Assembly: GCF_014836545.1 (NCBI RefSeq)
Contig: NZ_JACSQS010000005.1
Coordinates: forward strand, 97,594 to 161,593
Reading direction: 5' to 3'
DNA: 64,000 nucleotides
Source: Stenotrophomonas lacuserhaii
Lineage (GTDB): Bacteria > Pseudomonadota > Gammaproteobacteria > Xanthomonadales > Xanthomonadaceae
The translations under genes and the position numbers were made by a program. Numbering within the stretch: the first letter of the stretch is position 1; each line of letters starts with the position of its first letter. The notes under the pieces were generated by a model. That model did not search any database, was not told the origin of the DNA, and was given only the letters and a program-made list of their open reading frames with translations. Positions 20,206 to 35,877 of the stretch are shown here, in pieces.

Positions 20206-20292
20206 GCCCAGATGGCGGAATTGGTAGACGCACTAGCTTCAGGTGCTAGCGGGGGCAACTTCGTGGAGGTTCGAGTCCTCTTCTGGGCACCA
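20206..20292 (+). tRNA. tRNA-Leu (anticodon CAG), copy 1
   Basis: 87 bases including encoded CCA. Acceptor stem GCCCAGA/TCTGGGC, anticodon loop TTCAGGT giving anticodon CAG, a long class II variable arm, T loop GGTTCGAGTCC. It reads CUG, the main Leu codon in this GC-rich genome. It differs from copies 2 and 3 only at the seventh acceptor pair (A:T instead of G:C). Confidence 0.98.
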
Positions 20293-20400: not shown

Positions 20401-20487
20401 GCCCAGGTGGCGGAATTGGTAGACGCACTAGCTTCAGGTGCTAGCGGGGGCAACTTCGTGGAGGTTCGAGTCCTCTCCTGGGCACCA
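20401..20487 (+). tRNA. tRNA-Leu (anticodon CAG), copy 2
   Basis: 87 bases with encoded CCA; acceptor stem GCCCAGG/CCTGGGC, anticodon CAG in loop TTCAGGT, class II variable arm. Identical in sequence to copy 3. It lies 108 bases after copy 1 but has its own promoter and terminator, so the two are separate units. Confidence 0.98.
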
Positions 20488-22342: not shown

Positions 22343-22429
22343 GCCCAGGTGGCGGAATTGGTAGACGCACTAGCTTCAGGTGCTAGCGGGGGCAACTTCG
22401 TGGAGGTTCGAGTCCTCTCCTGGGCACCA
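22343..22429 (+). tRNA. tRNA-Leu (anticodon CAG), copy 3
   Basis: 87 bases with encoded CCA, identical to copy 2 including acceptor stem GCCCAGG/CCTGGGC. Separated from copy 2 by the TauE-like and LysR genes. Confidence 0.98.
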
Positions 22430-31442: not shown

Positions 31443-33752
31443 ATGCGTCGATGGTTGTTGCGGCTGTTCTGGCTGCTGCTGATACTGGCCTTGGGACTCG
31501 GCCTGATGGCCTGGTGGTTGCTGCGCGGCAGCCTTGCGCCGCTGGACGGCGAGCAGGTCCTCGGTGGCCTGCAGGCCCCGGTGACCGTCAGCCGCGACGG
31601 CCTGGGCGTGGTCACCATCGAAGGCGCCAGCCAACGCGATGTGATGCGCGCCCTGGGCCAGGTGCACGCACAGGAACGCGGTTTCGAGATGGACCTGATG
31701 CGCCGCAGCGCCGCCGGCGAGTTGTCCGCGCTGTTTGGCCCGGCCGCGCTGGAGGTGGACAAACGCATGCGCGTGCATCGCCTGCGCCACCGCGCATCGA
31801 AAGAACCGGTGAGTGCCGAACTGCAGGCTTACGTGGAAGGGGTGAACGCAGGAATCGCCAGCCTGCACGTGCGGCCCTGGCCCTACCTGCTGCTGCGCCA
31901 GCGGCCCGCGCCGTGGCAGGCCAGCGACAGCCTGCTTACCGGCTATGCGATGTATGCCGACCTGCAGGATCCGGCCAACCAGAGCGAGCTGGCGTACAGC
32001 CGCCTGCGTGCCGTAGTGCCACCGGCGCTGTACGCACTGCTGAGCCACGATGGCAGCAGTTGGGACGCGCCGTTGATGGGCGGACCGCGCGGCGATGCCG
32101 TGTTGCCCGGCGCCGATGTGCTGGACCTGCGTGGCCAGCCTGCCGCGCCTGCCGCTGCCGTGGCGGATACGGATGTCAAAGGCAGCAACAACTTCGCCGT
32201 CGGCGCGGCGCTGACCACCGATGGCCGCGCGATCCTCGCCGACGACATGCACCTGGGCCTGCGCGCACCGAATATCTGGTTCCGCGTGCGCCTGCGCTAC
32301 CCTGATCCGCAGGCGCCCGGTGGGCAGGTCGACGTGAGTGGATTTTCGCTGCCTGGCCTGCCGGCGATCATCGTCGGCAGCAACGGACACGTGGCGTGGG
32401 GCTTCACCAACAGCTACATCGATACCGCGGATTTCCAGCCGGTGCCGGCCGGCACGAAACTGTCCGAGTACCACGAAAAGATCGAGGTGGCCGGTGCTGC
32501 GCCGGTGGATTTCACCGTGCGCGAGAGCGCATGGGGGCCGTTGCTGCACCAGCGTGCCGATGGCAGCGGCGATGCGCTGCGCTGGGTTGCCCACCAACCC
32601 GGCGCGGTGAGCCTGGCGCTGACCGAGCTTGCACGCGTCGCCGATCTTGACCAGGCATTGCAGGTCGCCGACCGCACCCGCATCCCGGCGCAGAACCTGC
32701 TGCTGGCCGACAGCAACGGACGCATTGCCTGGCGTGTGCTGGGTGCGCGCCCGGACCGTGCTGCCGGCTGCGCGCCCACCGGCATGCGCACCACCACGGC
32801 CGATGGCTGCCCGGCATGGGGCATCCGCAGTGATGCGGCGCCCTCGCTGGTCGACCCGCCAAGCCACCGCCTGTGGACCGCCAACGGACGTGTGATGGAC
32901 GGCGAAGCACTGGCTCTCGCCGGTGACGGCGGCTACGACCTCGGCGCGCGCGGCGCACAGATCCGCGATGCACTGCAGGCCAGCGGACGTTTCAGCGAAG
33001 CGGACCTGCTGGCGATCCAGCTGGATGACCGCGCGGTATTCCTGCAGCGCTGGTGGCACCTGCTGCGCCGGGTGGTGGAGGGCTCGAATGACCCGCAACT
33101 GCAGCGGCTGGAGGCCATCACGCGCAGCTGGGAGGGCCATGCGTCGGTGGATTCGGTGAGCTATCGGGTAGTGCGTGGTTTCCGAGGCATGCTGCTGGAC
33201 GAAGTATCCGGTGCGATGCTGGCACCGGCGAAACAAGCGCTGGGCGAGGACTGGCTGGAACCGCGGCTGGCGCAGTTCGAAGGTGTGCTGTGGCCGCTGG
33301 TCGACCAGCGCCCGGCGCATCTACTGCCGCCTGGCCACGCAAGCTGGGACGCGCTGCTGGCCGACACCGCCAAGCGCCTGGAAGCGGACCTGACCGCGCA
33401 GGGGCCGCTGGCCGACCGCACCTGGGGTGAGCGCAATACCGCTGCGATCTGCCACCCGATCAGTCGTGCCCTGCCCGCCTTCGCAGAACGCTGGCTGTGC
33501 ATGCCGGCCGAGCCGCTGCCCGGCGACAACAACATGCCGCGCGTGCAGGGGCCAGGCTTCGGCGCTTCGCAGCGCATGGTGGTATCCCCTGGCCACGAAG
33601 ACCAGGGCATCATCCACATGCCGGGCGGCCAGAGCGGCCATCCGTTGTCACCGTTCTGGGCGGCCGGCCACGAGGACTACGTGCACGGACGTCCGACCCC
33701 GTTCCTGCCCGGTCCCAGCCGCCACACGCTTACCCTGCGGCCTGCCCGCTGA
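31443..33752 (+). CDS. Penicillin acylase-family N-terminal nucleophile hydrolase
   Basis: Self-cleaving amidase of the Ntn family; related enzymes hydrolyse beta-lactam side chains or acyl-homoserine lactones. 769 residues. An N-terminal membrane or signal segment (about 5-28), an alpha chain, a spacer, and the beta-chain start at Ser in KGSNNFAVG near residue 244, the autocatalytic nucleophile position. Further family segments are DDMHLGLRAPNIWF and GHVAWGFTNSYIDTADFQ. AAGGAAG precedes the start. Substrate not predictable: penicillin, acyl-homoserine lactone or peptide amides are all possible. Confidence 0.87.
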   Translation: MRRWLLRLFWLLLILALGLGLMAWWLLRGSLAPLDGEQVLGGLQAPVTVSRDGLGVVTIEGASQRDVMRALGQVHAQERGFEMDLMRRSAAGELSALFGPAALEVDKRMRVHRLRHRASKEPVSAELQAYVEGVNAGIASLHVRPWPYLLLRQRPAPWQASDSLLTGYAMYADLQDPANQSELAYSRLRAVVPPALYALLSHDGSSWDAPLMGGPRGDAVLPGADVLDLRGQPAAPAAAVADTDVKGSNNFAVGAALTTDGRAILADDMHLGLRAPNIWFRVRLRYPDPQAPGGQVDVSGFSLPGLPAIIVGSNGHVAWGFTNSYIDTADFQPVPAGTKLSEYHEKIEVAGAAPVDFTVRESAWGPLLHQRADGSGDALRWVAHQPGAVSLALTELARVADLDQALQVADRTRIPAQNLLLADSNGRIAWRVLGARPDRAAGCAPTGMRTTTADGCPAWGIRSDAAPSLVDPPSHRLWTANGRVMDGEALALAGDGGYDLGARGAQIRDALQASGRFSEADLLAIQLDDRAVFLQRWWHLLRRVVEGSNDPQLQRLEAITRSWEGHASVDSVSYRVVRGFRGMLLDEVSGAMLAPAKQALGEDWLEPRLAQFEGVLWPLVDQRPAHLLPPGHASWDALLADTAKRLEADLTAQGPLADRTWGERNTAAICHPISRALPAFAERWLCMPAEPLPGDNNMPRVQGPGFGASQRMVVSPGHEDQGIIHMPGGQSGHPLSPFWAAGHEDYVHGRPTPFLPGPSRHTLTLRPAR

Positions 33753-33822: not shown

Positions 33823-35514
33823 TCAGGCCAACGCCGCTTCGTGCACGCCGGCGATCGCCCGACCGGACGGGTCCGCGGCGGCGGCGAAACTGGCATCCCA
33901 CGCGATCGCCGCCGGTGACGAACAGGCGATCGACTTGCCACCCGGCACCGTTTCCGCCGCCGCATGGCTGGGGAAGTACTGCTCGAAAACGTGCCGGTAG
34001 TAATACGCCTCTTTGGTCTGCGGCGGGTTGTGCGGGAAGCGCTTGTCGGCGGCAGCCAGCACACGGTCGCTGACCTGCGCTTCGGCGTGTGCCTTCAGGC
34101 CGTCGATCCACCCGTAGCCCACGCCATCGCTGAACTGTTCCTTCTGCCGCCACAGGATGCTCTCCGGCAGATAGCCTTCGAACGCCGCACGCAGCACACC
34201 CTTCTCCACCCGGCGCCCACCGGAGGCTTCACTGCCGACCATCTTGTGCGCGGCATCGAAACGCATCGCCACGTCCAGGAACTCGCGGTCCAGGAACGGC
34301 ACGCGCGGCTCCACGCCCCACGCCATCATCGACTTGTTGGCGCGCAGGCAGTCGTAGTTGTGCAGGGCGTCCAGCTTGCGCACCAGCTCGCTGTGGAACT
34401 CCCGTGCATCCGGCGCCTTGTGGAAGTACAGGTAGCCCCCGAAGATCTCGTCGCTGCCCTCGCCGGACAGCACCATCTTCACGCCCATCGCCTTGATCCG
34501 CCGTGCCAGCAGGAACATCGGGGTGGAGGCGCGGATGGTGGTGACGTCGTAGGTTTCGATGTGGCGGATCACCTCCGGCAGCACGTCCAGGCCTTCCTCG
34601 AAGGTGTATTCGAACCCGTGGTGCACCGTACCCAGCGCCTCGGCGGCAATGGCGGCGGCGGCAAGATCGGGCGAGCCCTTGAGCCCGATGGCGAAGGAAT
34701 GCAGGCGCGGCCACCACGCTTCACTCTCACCACCGTCTTCAATGCGTCGGCGCGCATAGCGTGCGGCCACCGCAGCCACCAGCGAAGAATCCAGGCCACC
34801 GGAGAGCAGCACGCCGTAAGGCACGTCGCTCATCAGCTGGCGCTCCACCGCGCGCTCGAACGCTTCACGCAGTTCGGCCAGGTCCACCGGCTTGCCCTGC
34901 ACGGCGTCGTACTCGCGCCAGGACTGCTGGTAGTAACGCACCAGCTCGCCGGTTGCGCTGTCGTAGTAATGACCCGGCGGGAACTGCGCGGCATCGGCGC
35001 AGCTATCCACCAGCGCCTTCAATTCGGACGCTACGCGCAGGCGCCCCTGTGCATCGTGGCCCCAGTACAGCGGCACCACCCCGATCGGGTCACGCGCCAC
35101 CAGCACCCGCGCAGCCGCCTTGTCCCACAACGCAAAGGCGAAGATGCCGTTGAGTTGTTCCAGCCACTGCGACGGTTCACCCTGGCGGTACAGCGCGTTG
35201 ATCACTTCGCAGTCCGAGCCGGTCTGGAACGCATACGGCTGGCTCAGTCCGGCCTTCAGCTGCTGGTGGTTGTAGATCTCGCCGTTGACCGCCAGCGCCA
35301 GGCCACCGTCTTCGGACAGCAGCGGCTGCGAGCCGCCAGCGGGATCGACGATGGCCAACCGCTCGTGCACCAGCAGTGCGCCGTCGTCCAGGTAGACACC
35401 GCTCCAGTCCGGCCCGCGGTGGCGCTGGCGCTGCGATGATTCCAATGCGTGCCGGCGCAGCGCGGGGAGGTCGTCACCGGCCTGCAGGCCGAATATTCCG
35501 AAGATCGAACACAT
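33823..35514 (-). CDS. asnB: Asparagine synthetase B, glutamine-hydrolysing
   Basis: Makes asparagine from aspartate, ATP and glutamine amide nitrogen. 563 residues from ATG 35514 (E. coli AsnB about 554). Cys2 in MCSIFGIFG is the glutaminase nucleophile after Met removal; HERLAIVDPAGGSQPL and AVNGEIYN are the other glutaminase motifs. The synthetase domain has the PP-loop LLSGGLDSSLVAA and the conserved GEGSDEIFGGY. AGGAG lies 9 bases upstream. The frame continues upstream but that part overlaps the leader terminator. The gene sits behind a predicted attenuator (35594-35750) with an Asn-rich leader peptide. Confidence 0.95.
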   Translation of the reverse strand: MCSIFGIFGLQAGDDLPALRRHALESSQRQRHRGPDWSGVYLDDGALLVHERLAIVDPAGGSQPLLSEDGGLALAVNGEIYNHQQLKAGLSQPYAFQTGSDCEVINALYRQGEPSQWLEQLNGIFAFALWDKAAARVLVARDPIGVVPLYWGHDAQGRLRVASELKALVDSCADAAQFPPGHYYDSATGELVRYYQQSWREYDAVQGKPVDLAELREAFERAVERQLMSDVPYGVLLSGGLDSSLVAAVAARYARRRIEDGGESEAWWPRLHSFAIGLKGSPDLAAAAIAAEALGTVHHGFEYTFEEGLDVLPEVIRHIETYDVTTIRASTPMFLLARRIKAMGVKMVLSGEGSDEIFGGYLYFHKAPDAREFHSELVRKLDALHNYDCLRANKSMMAWGVEPRVPFLDREFLDVAMRFDAAHKMVGSEASGGRRVEKGVLRAAFEGYLPESILWRQKEQFSDGVGYGWIDGLKAHAEAQVSDRVLAAADKRFPHNPPQTKEAYYYRHVFEQYFPSHAAAETVPGGKSIACSSPAAIAWDASFAAAADPSGRAIAGVHEAALA

Positions 35515-35593
35515 GGGGGAAGCTCCTGTTTGGTGTCTATACGCGGTAGGGGTGTTCGACCGGCCAGCCTGGCCCGGGAGGTTTCCCGGGCAC

Positions 35594-35625
35594 AAAAAAA
35601 ACCCGCATCGGCCGATGCGGGTTTT
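35594..35625 (-). terminator. Leader terminator (attenuator) upstream of asnB
   Basis: The perfect 20-base palindrome CCCGCATCGGCCGATGCGGG (35602-35621) forms an 8-bp stem with GGCC loop; adjoining A and T bases can extend it. On the minus strand it is followed by eight T (35601-35594). It lies 80 bases before the asnB start, so transcription initiated upstream must pass it to reach asnB. It would also work as an ordinary terminator for a minus-strand gene, but none longer than the leader peptide lies upstream. Confidence 0.85.
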
Positions 35626-35681
35626 CTGGTGTCCGGGTGTGTAGTGTCTTATCTACCCAGGGCGCAGTCCCGCATCGGCCG
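35602..35681 (-). promoter_or_regulatory. Antiterminator/terminator switch of the asnB leader
   Basis: On the transcript, CGGCCGATGCGGG occurs twice: segment A (35681-35669) inside the leader peptide frame, and segment C (35614-35602), the 3' arm of the terminator. Segment B (35621-35610, CCCGCATCGGCC) can pair with either. A:B gives a 12-bp antiterminator with a 47-base loop; B:C gives the terminator. A weaker upstream hairpin (CGCGC/GCGCG at 35699-35695 and 35684-35680) could occupy the start of A once a ribosome has passed the Asn codons. The mutually exclusive pairings are visible; the regulatory behaviour is inferred. Confidence 0.75.
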
Positions 35682-35750
35682 CGCACGATTATTCGCGCGC
35701 AGGTTATTGCGGTTGGTATTGCGGACGGCGGTGGCGGGGAGCAAGGACAT
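35649..35750 (-). CDS. Asn-rich leader peptide of asnB
   Basis: A 33-codon frame, ATG 35750 to TAA 35649, encoding a peptide that begins MSLLPATAV and continues RNTNRNNLRANN. Six of residues 11-21 are Asn (AAT/AAC codons at 11, 13, 15, 16, 20 and 21), far above expectation in a genome this GC-rich. The antiterminator strand A lies in codons 24-27, just after the Asn codons, as expected for ribosome-stalling control. No strong ribosome-binding site is seen, which is the weakest point. Asparagine is also the product of the downstream gene, so low Asn-tRNA charging would favour asnB transcription. Confidence 0.7.
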   Translation of the reverse strand: MSLLPATAVRNTNRNNLRANNRARPMRDCALGR

Positions 35751-35877
35751 GGATCGACCGTAACCGGGTTCCGGCGGCGGCGCAACTGTTGCGATGGCAA
35801 CCGTTCCTGCGCCGACGTTCAGCCGCCACGCGGTAGACGTCCCGGATAATCTCCCGCCCCCCTTGAGGACTTCACGG

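Follow-up and report, generated by a model that had tools for sequence, protein, structure and literature searches.

The leader of asnB in the analysed window (the whole stretch of DNA studied, 64,000 nt long) is very probably a ribosome-mediated transcription attenuator that reads asparagine. An Asn-responsive attenuator ahead of asnB was predicted in the initial annotation, and conserved leaders, covariation of two competing helices (A:B and B:C), and gene content support it. By sequence comparison, the Asn-rich frame, both helices, the promoter position, and the gene context are conserved; translation of the leader, stalling, termination, and the response to asparagine are what we infer. 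An Asn-enriched upstream ORF was identified, with an intrinsic terminator between it and asnB and an antiterminator that excludes this terminator. Segment A of the antiterminator coincides with the final codons of the ORF, where a ribosome translating the leader could reach it.

Leader locus, promoter, and asparagine genes

The minus-strand order is TTGCGC-17-TACGGT, 6 bases, AUG, a 33-codon ORF with six Asn, terminator, eight U, 79 nt, and asnB (Table 1). Translation of 35750-35649 gives the leader peptide MSLLPATAVRNTNRNNLRANNRARPMRDCALGR*, and the Asn residues at 11, 13, 15, 16, 20, and 21 are exactly as annotated in both sequence and translation. The 13-base CGGCCGATGCGGG, noted as present twice on the transcript, has two exact copies at leader nt 70-82 (35681-35669) and 137-149 (35614-35602). 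A single complement between the copies was also described; CCCGCATCGGCCG is exact at leader nt 130-142 (35621-35609), but it overlaps the second copy at CGGCCG. This self-complementary hexamer is common to segment B and the second CGGCCGATGCGGG copy, and so the terminator arms overlap there. The eight U placed about 80 bases ahead of asnB are the run 35601-35594, with a gap of 79 nt.

Table 1. Features of the asnB leader region in the window
Feature	Position	Strand	Basis
Predicted -35 element TTGCGC	35780..35785	-	Sequence and comparative promoter test
Predicted -10 element TACGGT, 6 nt ahead of leader AUG	35757..35762	-	Comparative promoter test
GCAACAGTTGC palindrome overlapping -35, putative operator	35782..35792	-	Sequence; function inferred only
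Asn-rich leader ORF, 33 codons + TAA, proposed sensor	35649..35750	-	Sequence, translation, relatives
Proposed regulatory Asn codons	35688..35720 (35720-35718, 35714-35712, 35708-35703, 35693-35688)	-	
Segment A, 5' arm of antiterminator, encodes part of peptide C-terminal end	35669..35681	-	Covariation with B
Antiterminator inner helices	35626..35667 (35667-35665 with 35628-35626; 35660-35655 with 35638-35633)	-	Fold
Segment B, shared arm, pairs with A or C	35609..35621	-	Covariation
Segment C, 3' arm of terminator, overlaps B by CGGCCG	35602..35614	-	Sequence, covariation
U run of intrinsic terminator, predicted 3' end of attenuated leader RNA	35594..35601	-	Sequence
AGGAG, predicted asnB ribosome binding site	35523..35527	-	Sequence
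asnB, asparagine synthase B, 563 aa, ATG at 35514	33823..35514	-	NF006949, PF00733

The product of asnB matches NCBIfam NF006949 with 860 bits (cut-off 499) as well as Pfam PF00733, and is 91% identical to AsnB of Stenotrophomonas maltophilia LMG 978, an identity that very probably places the window in Stenotrophomonas. Among 534 ORFs of the window (ATG starts, 17-60 codons, both strands, nested starts included), the asnB leader is the sole one with at least six Asn. The stretch from A to B (35692-35606) folds with -37.8 kcal/mol (z = -4.55), and z of the whole leader fold is -3.68.

The upstream neighbour, a Sel1-repeat protein on the plus strand, is divergent, and the asnB promoter should therefore lie in the gap. 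A sigma-70 consensus scan of the region returned no promoter and a terminator scan missed the leader terminator; both the leader promoter and the terminator were recovered by comparative tests. The pattern TTG-16/18-YANNNT was found 5-8 nt ahead of an in-frame start in 117/127 leaders and at 1/996 control starts of the same regions, a count in which the choice among in-frame starts somewhat favours the leaders. In a stricter test (TANNNT, 5-9 nt, one start each) the numbers were 70/127 and 2/434, respectively. The promoter position puts the expected RNA 5' end on the leader AUG or next to it, and translation probably has a leaderless start. A GTTGC-N4-GCAAC-N-GTTGC repeat at 35782-35801 (minus strand) overlaps the -35 element, and GCAACnGTTGC occurs in 26/127 upstream regions; the repeat is a possible operator of some regulator.

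Asparaginyl-tRNA synthetase (AsnRS, asnS) scored above the cut-off in all 21 genomes tested, and neither gatB nor asnA had a match in any of 13 genomes of the genus, the window's genome included. In the latter, asnB is the sole TIGR01536 match. With AsnRS present, gatB and asnA not found, and a single asnB, charging of tRNA-Asn should depend on free asparagine, either made by AsnB or imported. On this gene content, charged tRNA can report the amino acid supply. Behind the tRNA-Asn(GUU) gene of the window's genome (G000:C33:164540-164575, L003) stands a terminator closely resembling the one in the asnB leader, a likeness that may only reflect a terminator sequence in wide use.

Distribution, frame, and covariation of the leaders

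Comparison of asnB upstream regions had been suggested as a check on the predicted attenuator, and its outcome was favourable, with recurrent Asn-rich leaders and covarying A:B and B:C pairings. Relatives of AsnB were found in 178 of 198 family genomes (E at most 1e-100). The main set comprised 130 loci (30 + 100) out of these 178 genomes, with up to 450 nt upstream, and was drawn from the more similar AsnB among the matches listed, so that less similar AsnB are under-sampled in it. By the criterion of an ORF with at least three Asn, 128/130 loci had a leader. The ORF of L122 (GTG start, without terminator) was removed as spurious, and this locus was scored as a miss together with L104 and L105, which leaves 127/130. 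The 131st family locus, L172, codes for a divergent AsnB (64% identical) and has no leader. An Asn-rich ORF thus stands ahead of asnB in 127/131 family loci, 130 of them from the more similar AsnB among the matches listed, with L104, L105, L122, and L172 as the loci without it. Two chief peptide types were recognized, ...NNRARPMRVCD and ...NNNNRNNASLPRAGD.

Two more families of the same order, f12 and f2, which look Rhodanobacteraceae-like when their sequences are compared with named loci, have the leader in 15/15 loci and then in 2/3 more (17/18 in total). Among 20 further loci of the order, those three and L172 included, it was found in three only, and is absent ahead of asnB in eight loci of f9, four of five of f7, f5, f10, f4, one f12 locus with divergent AsnB, and L172. 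Locus L159 passed the crude Asn count and was judged not to be a leader. In L166, the sole leader among the five f7 loci, MFAIYNTINTTNNRLLRSAGSF and a terminator precede asnB.

In a second collection, 68/80 loci had an ORF above the cut; three of these (L272, L275, and L277) have no terminator, and leader plus terminator were therefore counted in 65/80. These leaders include ones from Stenotrophomonas, Xanthomonas, Pseudoxanthomonas, Thermomonas, Luteimonas, Lysobacter, Arenimonas, Rhodanobacter, Dyella, Luteibacter, Frateuria, and Fulvimonas. No leader was identified within 400 nt upstream of the related enzyme in Pantoea, Tatumella, Mycobacterium, Rhodococcus, and several MAGs. Of the 15 misses, 13 carry names from outside Lysobacterales, among them L225, labelled Holophagales with 80% identity, and L269, labelled Oceanospirillales. 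The two other misses are L243, with only 60 nt of upstream sequence available, and L221, which fell below the density cut; L074, seemingly from the same contig as L221, has a leader with three Asn in 39. When 143 genomes were drawn across the class and two family members among them set aside, an AsnB this close (E at most 1e-150) was found in 1/141.

Asparagine makes up 19.4% of 3964 residues in the 127 leaders, versus 1.4% expected at the G+C content of the window. AAY triplets number 770 in frame, and 5 and 8 in the other frames. Within the initial 80 columns of A1, the alignment of type i leaders, all 139 gap runs are multiples of three, and downstream gap runs are not so; rows L046, L069, and L084 have gap runs of two and one within segment A (sum of three), beyond the 80 columns counted. 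Between close leader pairs, changes at the three codon positions (175, 188, and 160) show no third-position excess, and replacement codon changes (279) exceed silent ones (80). Both the Asn number and the N-terminal sequence vary widely among genomes. By these alignments, Asn and the frame appear to be held and the remainder of the peptide to drift. AAU represents 364/770 Asn codons of the leaders versus 73/531 of asnB, the two counts being from different samples.

A 3' hairpin with a T tract was recognized by the terminator rule in 113/127 leaders; the other 14 have a G+C hairpin by eye, with a poorer T tail than the rule demands. Covariation was analysed in alignments A1 (50 of 59 type i leaders) and A2 (39 of 41 type ii leaders), from which near-duplicates and one misfit had been removed by hand. 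Ten other leaders, L124, and the 14 without a rule-based terminator are outside the alignments. All tallies count sequences and not independent events.

For the 50 type i sequences, 11 of the 19 pairs of A:B and the inner helix are changed on both sides, with a shuffle mean of 5.0 and none of 500 shuffles equal, and 82.4% of the cells are paired versus at most 36.0% when the arms are slid. Five of the six inner-helix pairs in A1 are changed on both sides, one of them being unpaired in 46/50 sequences, and pairs at both ends of A:B are broken in 14 to 17 of the sequences. Among the 39 type ii sequences, one A:B pair is never broken, being G-C in 23 and A-U in 16. The same B base also pairs in the terminator, where the 16 U cases face G in 14 (U-G wobble) and A in two. 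Near the C-terminal end of the peptide CGG becomes CAG as B changes from C to U; in the aligned type ii leaders A follows B, and the change appears as Arg to Gln in the peptide. Type ii pairs changed on both sides number four, equalled by 45/500 shuffles, and its seven pair types are below the shuffle mean of 7.5. B:C is paired in 98.5% (type i) and 94.0% (type ii) of the cells, with compensatory changes. In 91/113 leaders the cognate A:B duplex is stronger than A paired on average with foreign B arms; in 22/113 it is not. Families f2 and f12 have hairpins of other sequence (GGCCCGC...), with what looks like a matching stretch again near the end of the ORF. A hairpin over the Asn codons was considered as a '1:2' pause hairpin and set aside as weakly supported.

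Predicted switch and alternative explanations

RNA polymerase would initiate at the leader AUG or immediately next to it, and a ribosome would load on the RNA 5' end. When Asn-tRNA is scarce, the ribosome would halt on the Asn codons and segment A would stay free to pair with B as B emerges from the polymerase, with the inner helices assisting; C would then be single, no terminator would form, and asnB would be transcribed. With ample Asn, the ribosome would proceed towards the stop codon and cover A or the inner helix, B:C would form, and transcription would end near 35594.

Folding of the window leader, with RNA freed from 12 nt beyond the first base of the A-site codon, gave the antiterminator as the best fold for a stall at Asn 11, 13, 15, 16, or 20, and the terminator when the ribosome was placed at Asn 21 or the stop codon. 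The stop-codon ribosome leads to the terminator in 113/113 leaders, and without any ribosome the terminator is formed in 107/113. The antiterminator is reached at equilibrium after any Asn stall in 42/113 leaders (168/671 stalls), and in 12/565 shuffled controls. In the other 71/113 the terminator wins after every Asn stall, so the antiterminator there must win by forming first, a co-transcriptional race being assumed. In RNA truncated ahead of C, B pairs upstream for 660/671 Asn stalls, and in 26/113 leaders when the ribosome has reached the stop codon; since shuffled controls reach 69% of stalls, the truncated-RNA folding is consistent rather than decisive. The stall-dependent choice between terminator and asnB transcription, as first proposed, therefore stands as regards the conserved, mutually exclusive helices, but as an equilibrium switch it fits 42/113 leaders only and would otherwise be co-transcriptional. 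Equilibrium folding, which fits only the window and those 42 leaders, counts against a purely thermodynamic switch.

The leader ORF has its own promoter-like sequence and terminator and its peptide is Arg-rich (16.8%), as would suit a functional basic small protein rich in Asn and Arg, with the hairpin merely its terminator and the asnB promoter elsewhere. This is very unlikely, as a residue near the C-terminal end shifts from Arg to Gln when the RNA pairing changes, genomes vary widely in the number of Asn and in the N-terminal sequence, and the position ahead of asnB is retained. The consensus scan found no other promoter of asnB, a weak point given that the same scan missed the leader promoter. 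Arginine was also considered as the sensed amino acid and rejected, its 16.8% of leader residues being near the approximately 14% estimated for 67% G+C. A DNA pattern for Asn-Asn-Arg-Asn-Asn had no match in the window's genome, as the window leader itself does not contain this motif.

Control of the terminator by another RNA sensor, such as a tRNA-Asn T-box or a metabolite riboswitch, with the ORF incidental, would suit the terminator/antiterminator pair taken alone. No Rfam family reached its gathering score in the region, though, and there is no T-box among the nine weaker matches; the ORF, with conserved frame and Asn codons, fills the RNA from its predicted 5' end up to a point about 50 nt short of the U run, and a sensor of this kind is highly improbable. 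The best sub-threshold match is NsiR1 (25.6 of 39), and the amino acid leaders Thr_leader and Leu_leader scored 21.3 of 55 and 19.1 of 50 bits, respectively, all of these over the terminator. Equally remote is control at the level of translation, in which a ribosome stall would uncover or mask the asnB ribosome binding site. The AGGAG of asnB does follow the hairpins on that RNA, but in the window it lies 66 nt beyond the U run, a stem with T tract is recognized by rule in those 113/127 leaders, and the hairpin stands anywhere between 27 and 206 nt ahead of asnB.

Relation to known attenuators

The trp, his, leu, thr, ilv, and phe operons are controlled by leader-peptide (ribosome-mediated) transcription attenuators. 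The asnB leader resembles these classic systems in its short amino-acid-rich ORF, overlapping antiterminator arm, intrinsic terminator, biosynthetic gene, and covarying rival helices, and differs from them in that it reads asparagine, has asnB as its target, and has a start codon predicted at the RNA 5' end. Asn-specific T-boxes of Firmicutes sense charging of tRNA-Asn and control asn genes; there the tRNA is bound directly by the RNA without a leader ORF, whereas the asnB leader has an ORF and no T-box match.

The excerpts of PMC7298713 and PMC10117765 describe trpL of Sinorhizobium meliloti as a leader ORF that starts at the first base of the RNA, and report trans roles of rnTrpL RNA and of its peptide. 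A start at the RNA 5' end and attenuation, both predicted for asnB, are common to both leaders; trpL differs in reading tryptophan, in its alphaproteobacterial host, and in its reported trans roles. A broader reading is unlikely, though less so than the alternatives above: the asnB leader would be a leaderless mini-mRNA tuned through AAU, a codon otherwise rare, and the first leader attenuator to read asparagine, ancient enough that Xanthomonadaceae and Rhodanobacteraceae share it, which may report AAU decoding by tRNA-Asn in addition to charging, and whose terminated RNA or Arg/Asn-rich peptide would act in trans like rnTrpL/peTrpL of S. meliloti.

Model R1, built on type i asnB leaders, matched 60/99 family genomes searched (E at most 0.01), and it misses many type ii leaders because of its type i origin. 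In the window's genome there is one strong match, the asnB leader, and the next (E = 3.4e-4) is ahead of ilvC. Fourteen matched regions were inspected. Nine have runs of Leu/Val/Ile codons, ahead of ilvC in seven (L184 at G000:C31:76900-76989 on the minus strand, L185, L186, L188, L190, L193, and L194) and of ilvD in two (L192 and L197); L196 is a second copy of an asnB leader at a contig end, and four seem unrelated. The peptide SLLVLVLITEPTGAGRTGA of L185 is an example. The leader frame was read by eye in L184, L192, L193, and L197, and the ilv gene was tested by HMM in L184, L185, L192, and L197 and judged by likeness in the other five. The ilvC and ilvD leaders have the same order of parts as the asnB leader and are matched by R1, but their codons are Leu/Val/Ile, their genes are others, and the R1 match is weaker (E about 1e-5 to 1e-3). 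In bacteria of this order the classical design seems to serve branched-chain amino acids as well, and these leaders of like design support placing the asnB leader among the classical attenuators.

No asparagine leader attenuator could be recognised in the titles and abstract openings listed by searches of open-access full texts; supplementary tables and the surveys by Lopatovskaya et al. 2010 (PMID 20198868) and Vitreschak et al. 2004 lie beyond this scope, and either survey may mention one. The excerpts of PMC2965389 (with attenuator lists in its supplement), PMC10219788, PMC3771888, PMC4833913, PMC8632094, PMC11109978, PMC6429828, PMC7298713, PMC4117421, PMC10117765, and PMC5009743 describe none, and the terms sought do not occur in PMC1262725, PMC1183508, and PMC5559785. 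The asnB leader looks like a new amino acid in a known mechanism. The expression 'undescribed regulatory system' of the initial annotation is therefore too strong, since the class of mechanism is a familiar one and the apparent novelty is confined to the amino acid.

With the asnB leader, asparagine would join the amino acids that classical attenuators read, and what looks like the sole asparagine synthase of the window's Stenotrophomonas-like genome would have a control mechanism. The same control would extend to asnB of Xanthomonas, Lysobacter, Rhodanobacter, and Dyella. Well over 100 natural variants of one switch, in two main peptide/hairpin types and most with a predicted leaderless start, would be useful for testing the match between ribosome stalls and RNA folding, and the leader would offer a simple reporter of asparagine supply.

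Elsewhere in the window, a penicillin-amidase family protein (31443-33752, plus strand; PF01804, E 7.5e-122) is encoded convergently with asnB. Three near-identical tRNA-Leu(CAG) genes are at 20206-20292, 20401-20487, and 22343-22429 on the plus strand, the third about 1.9 kb past the second.
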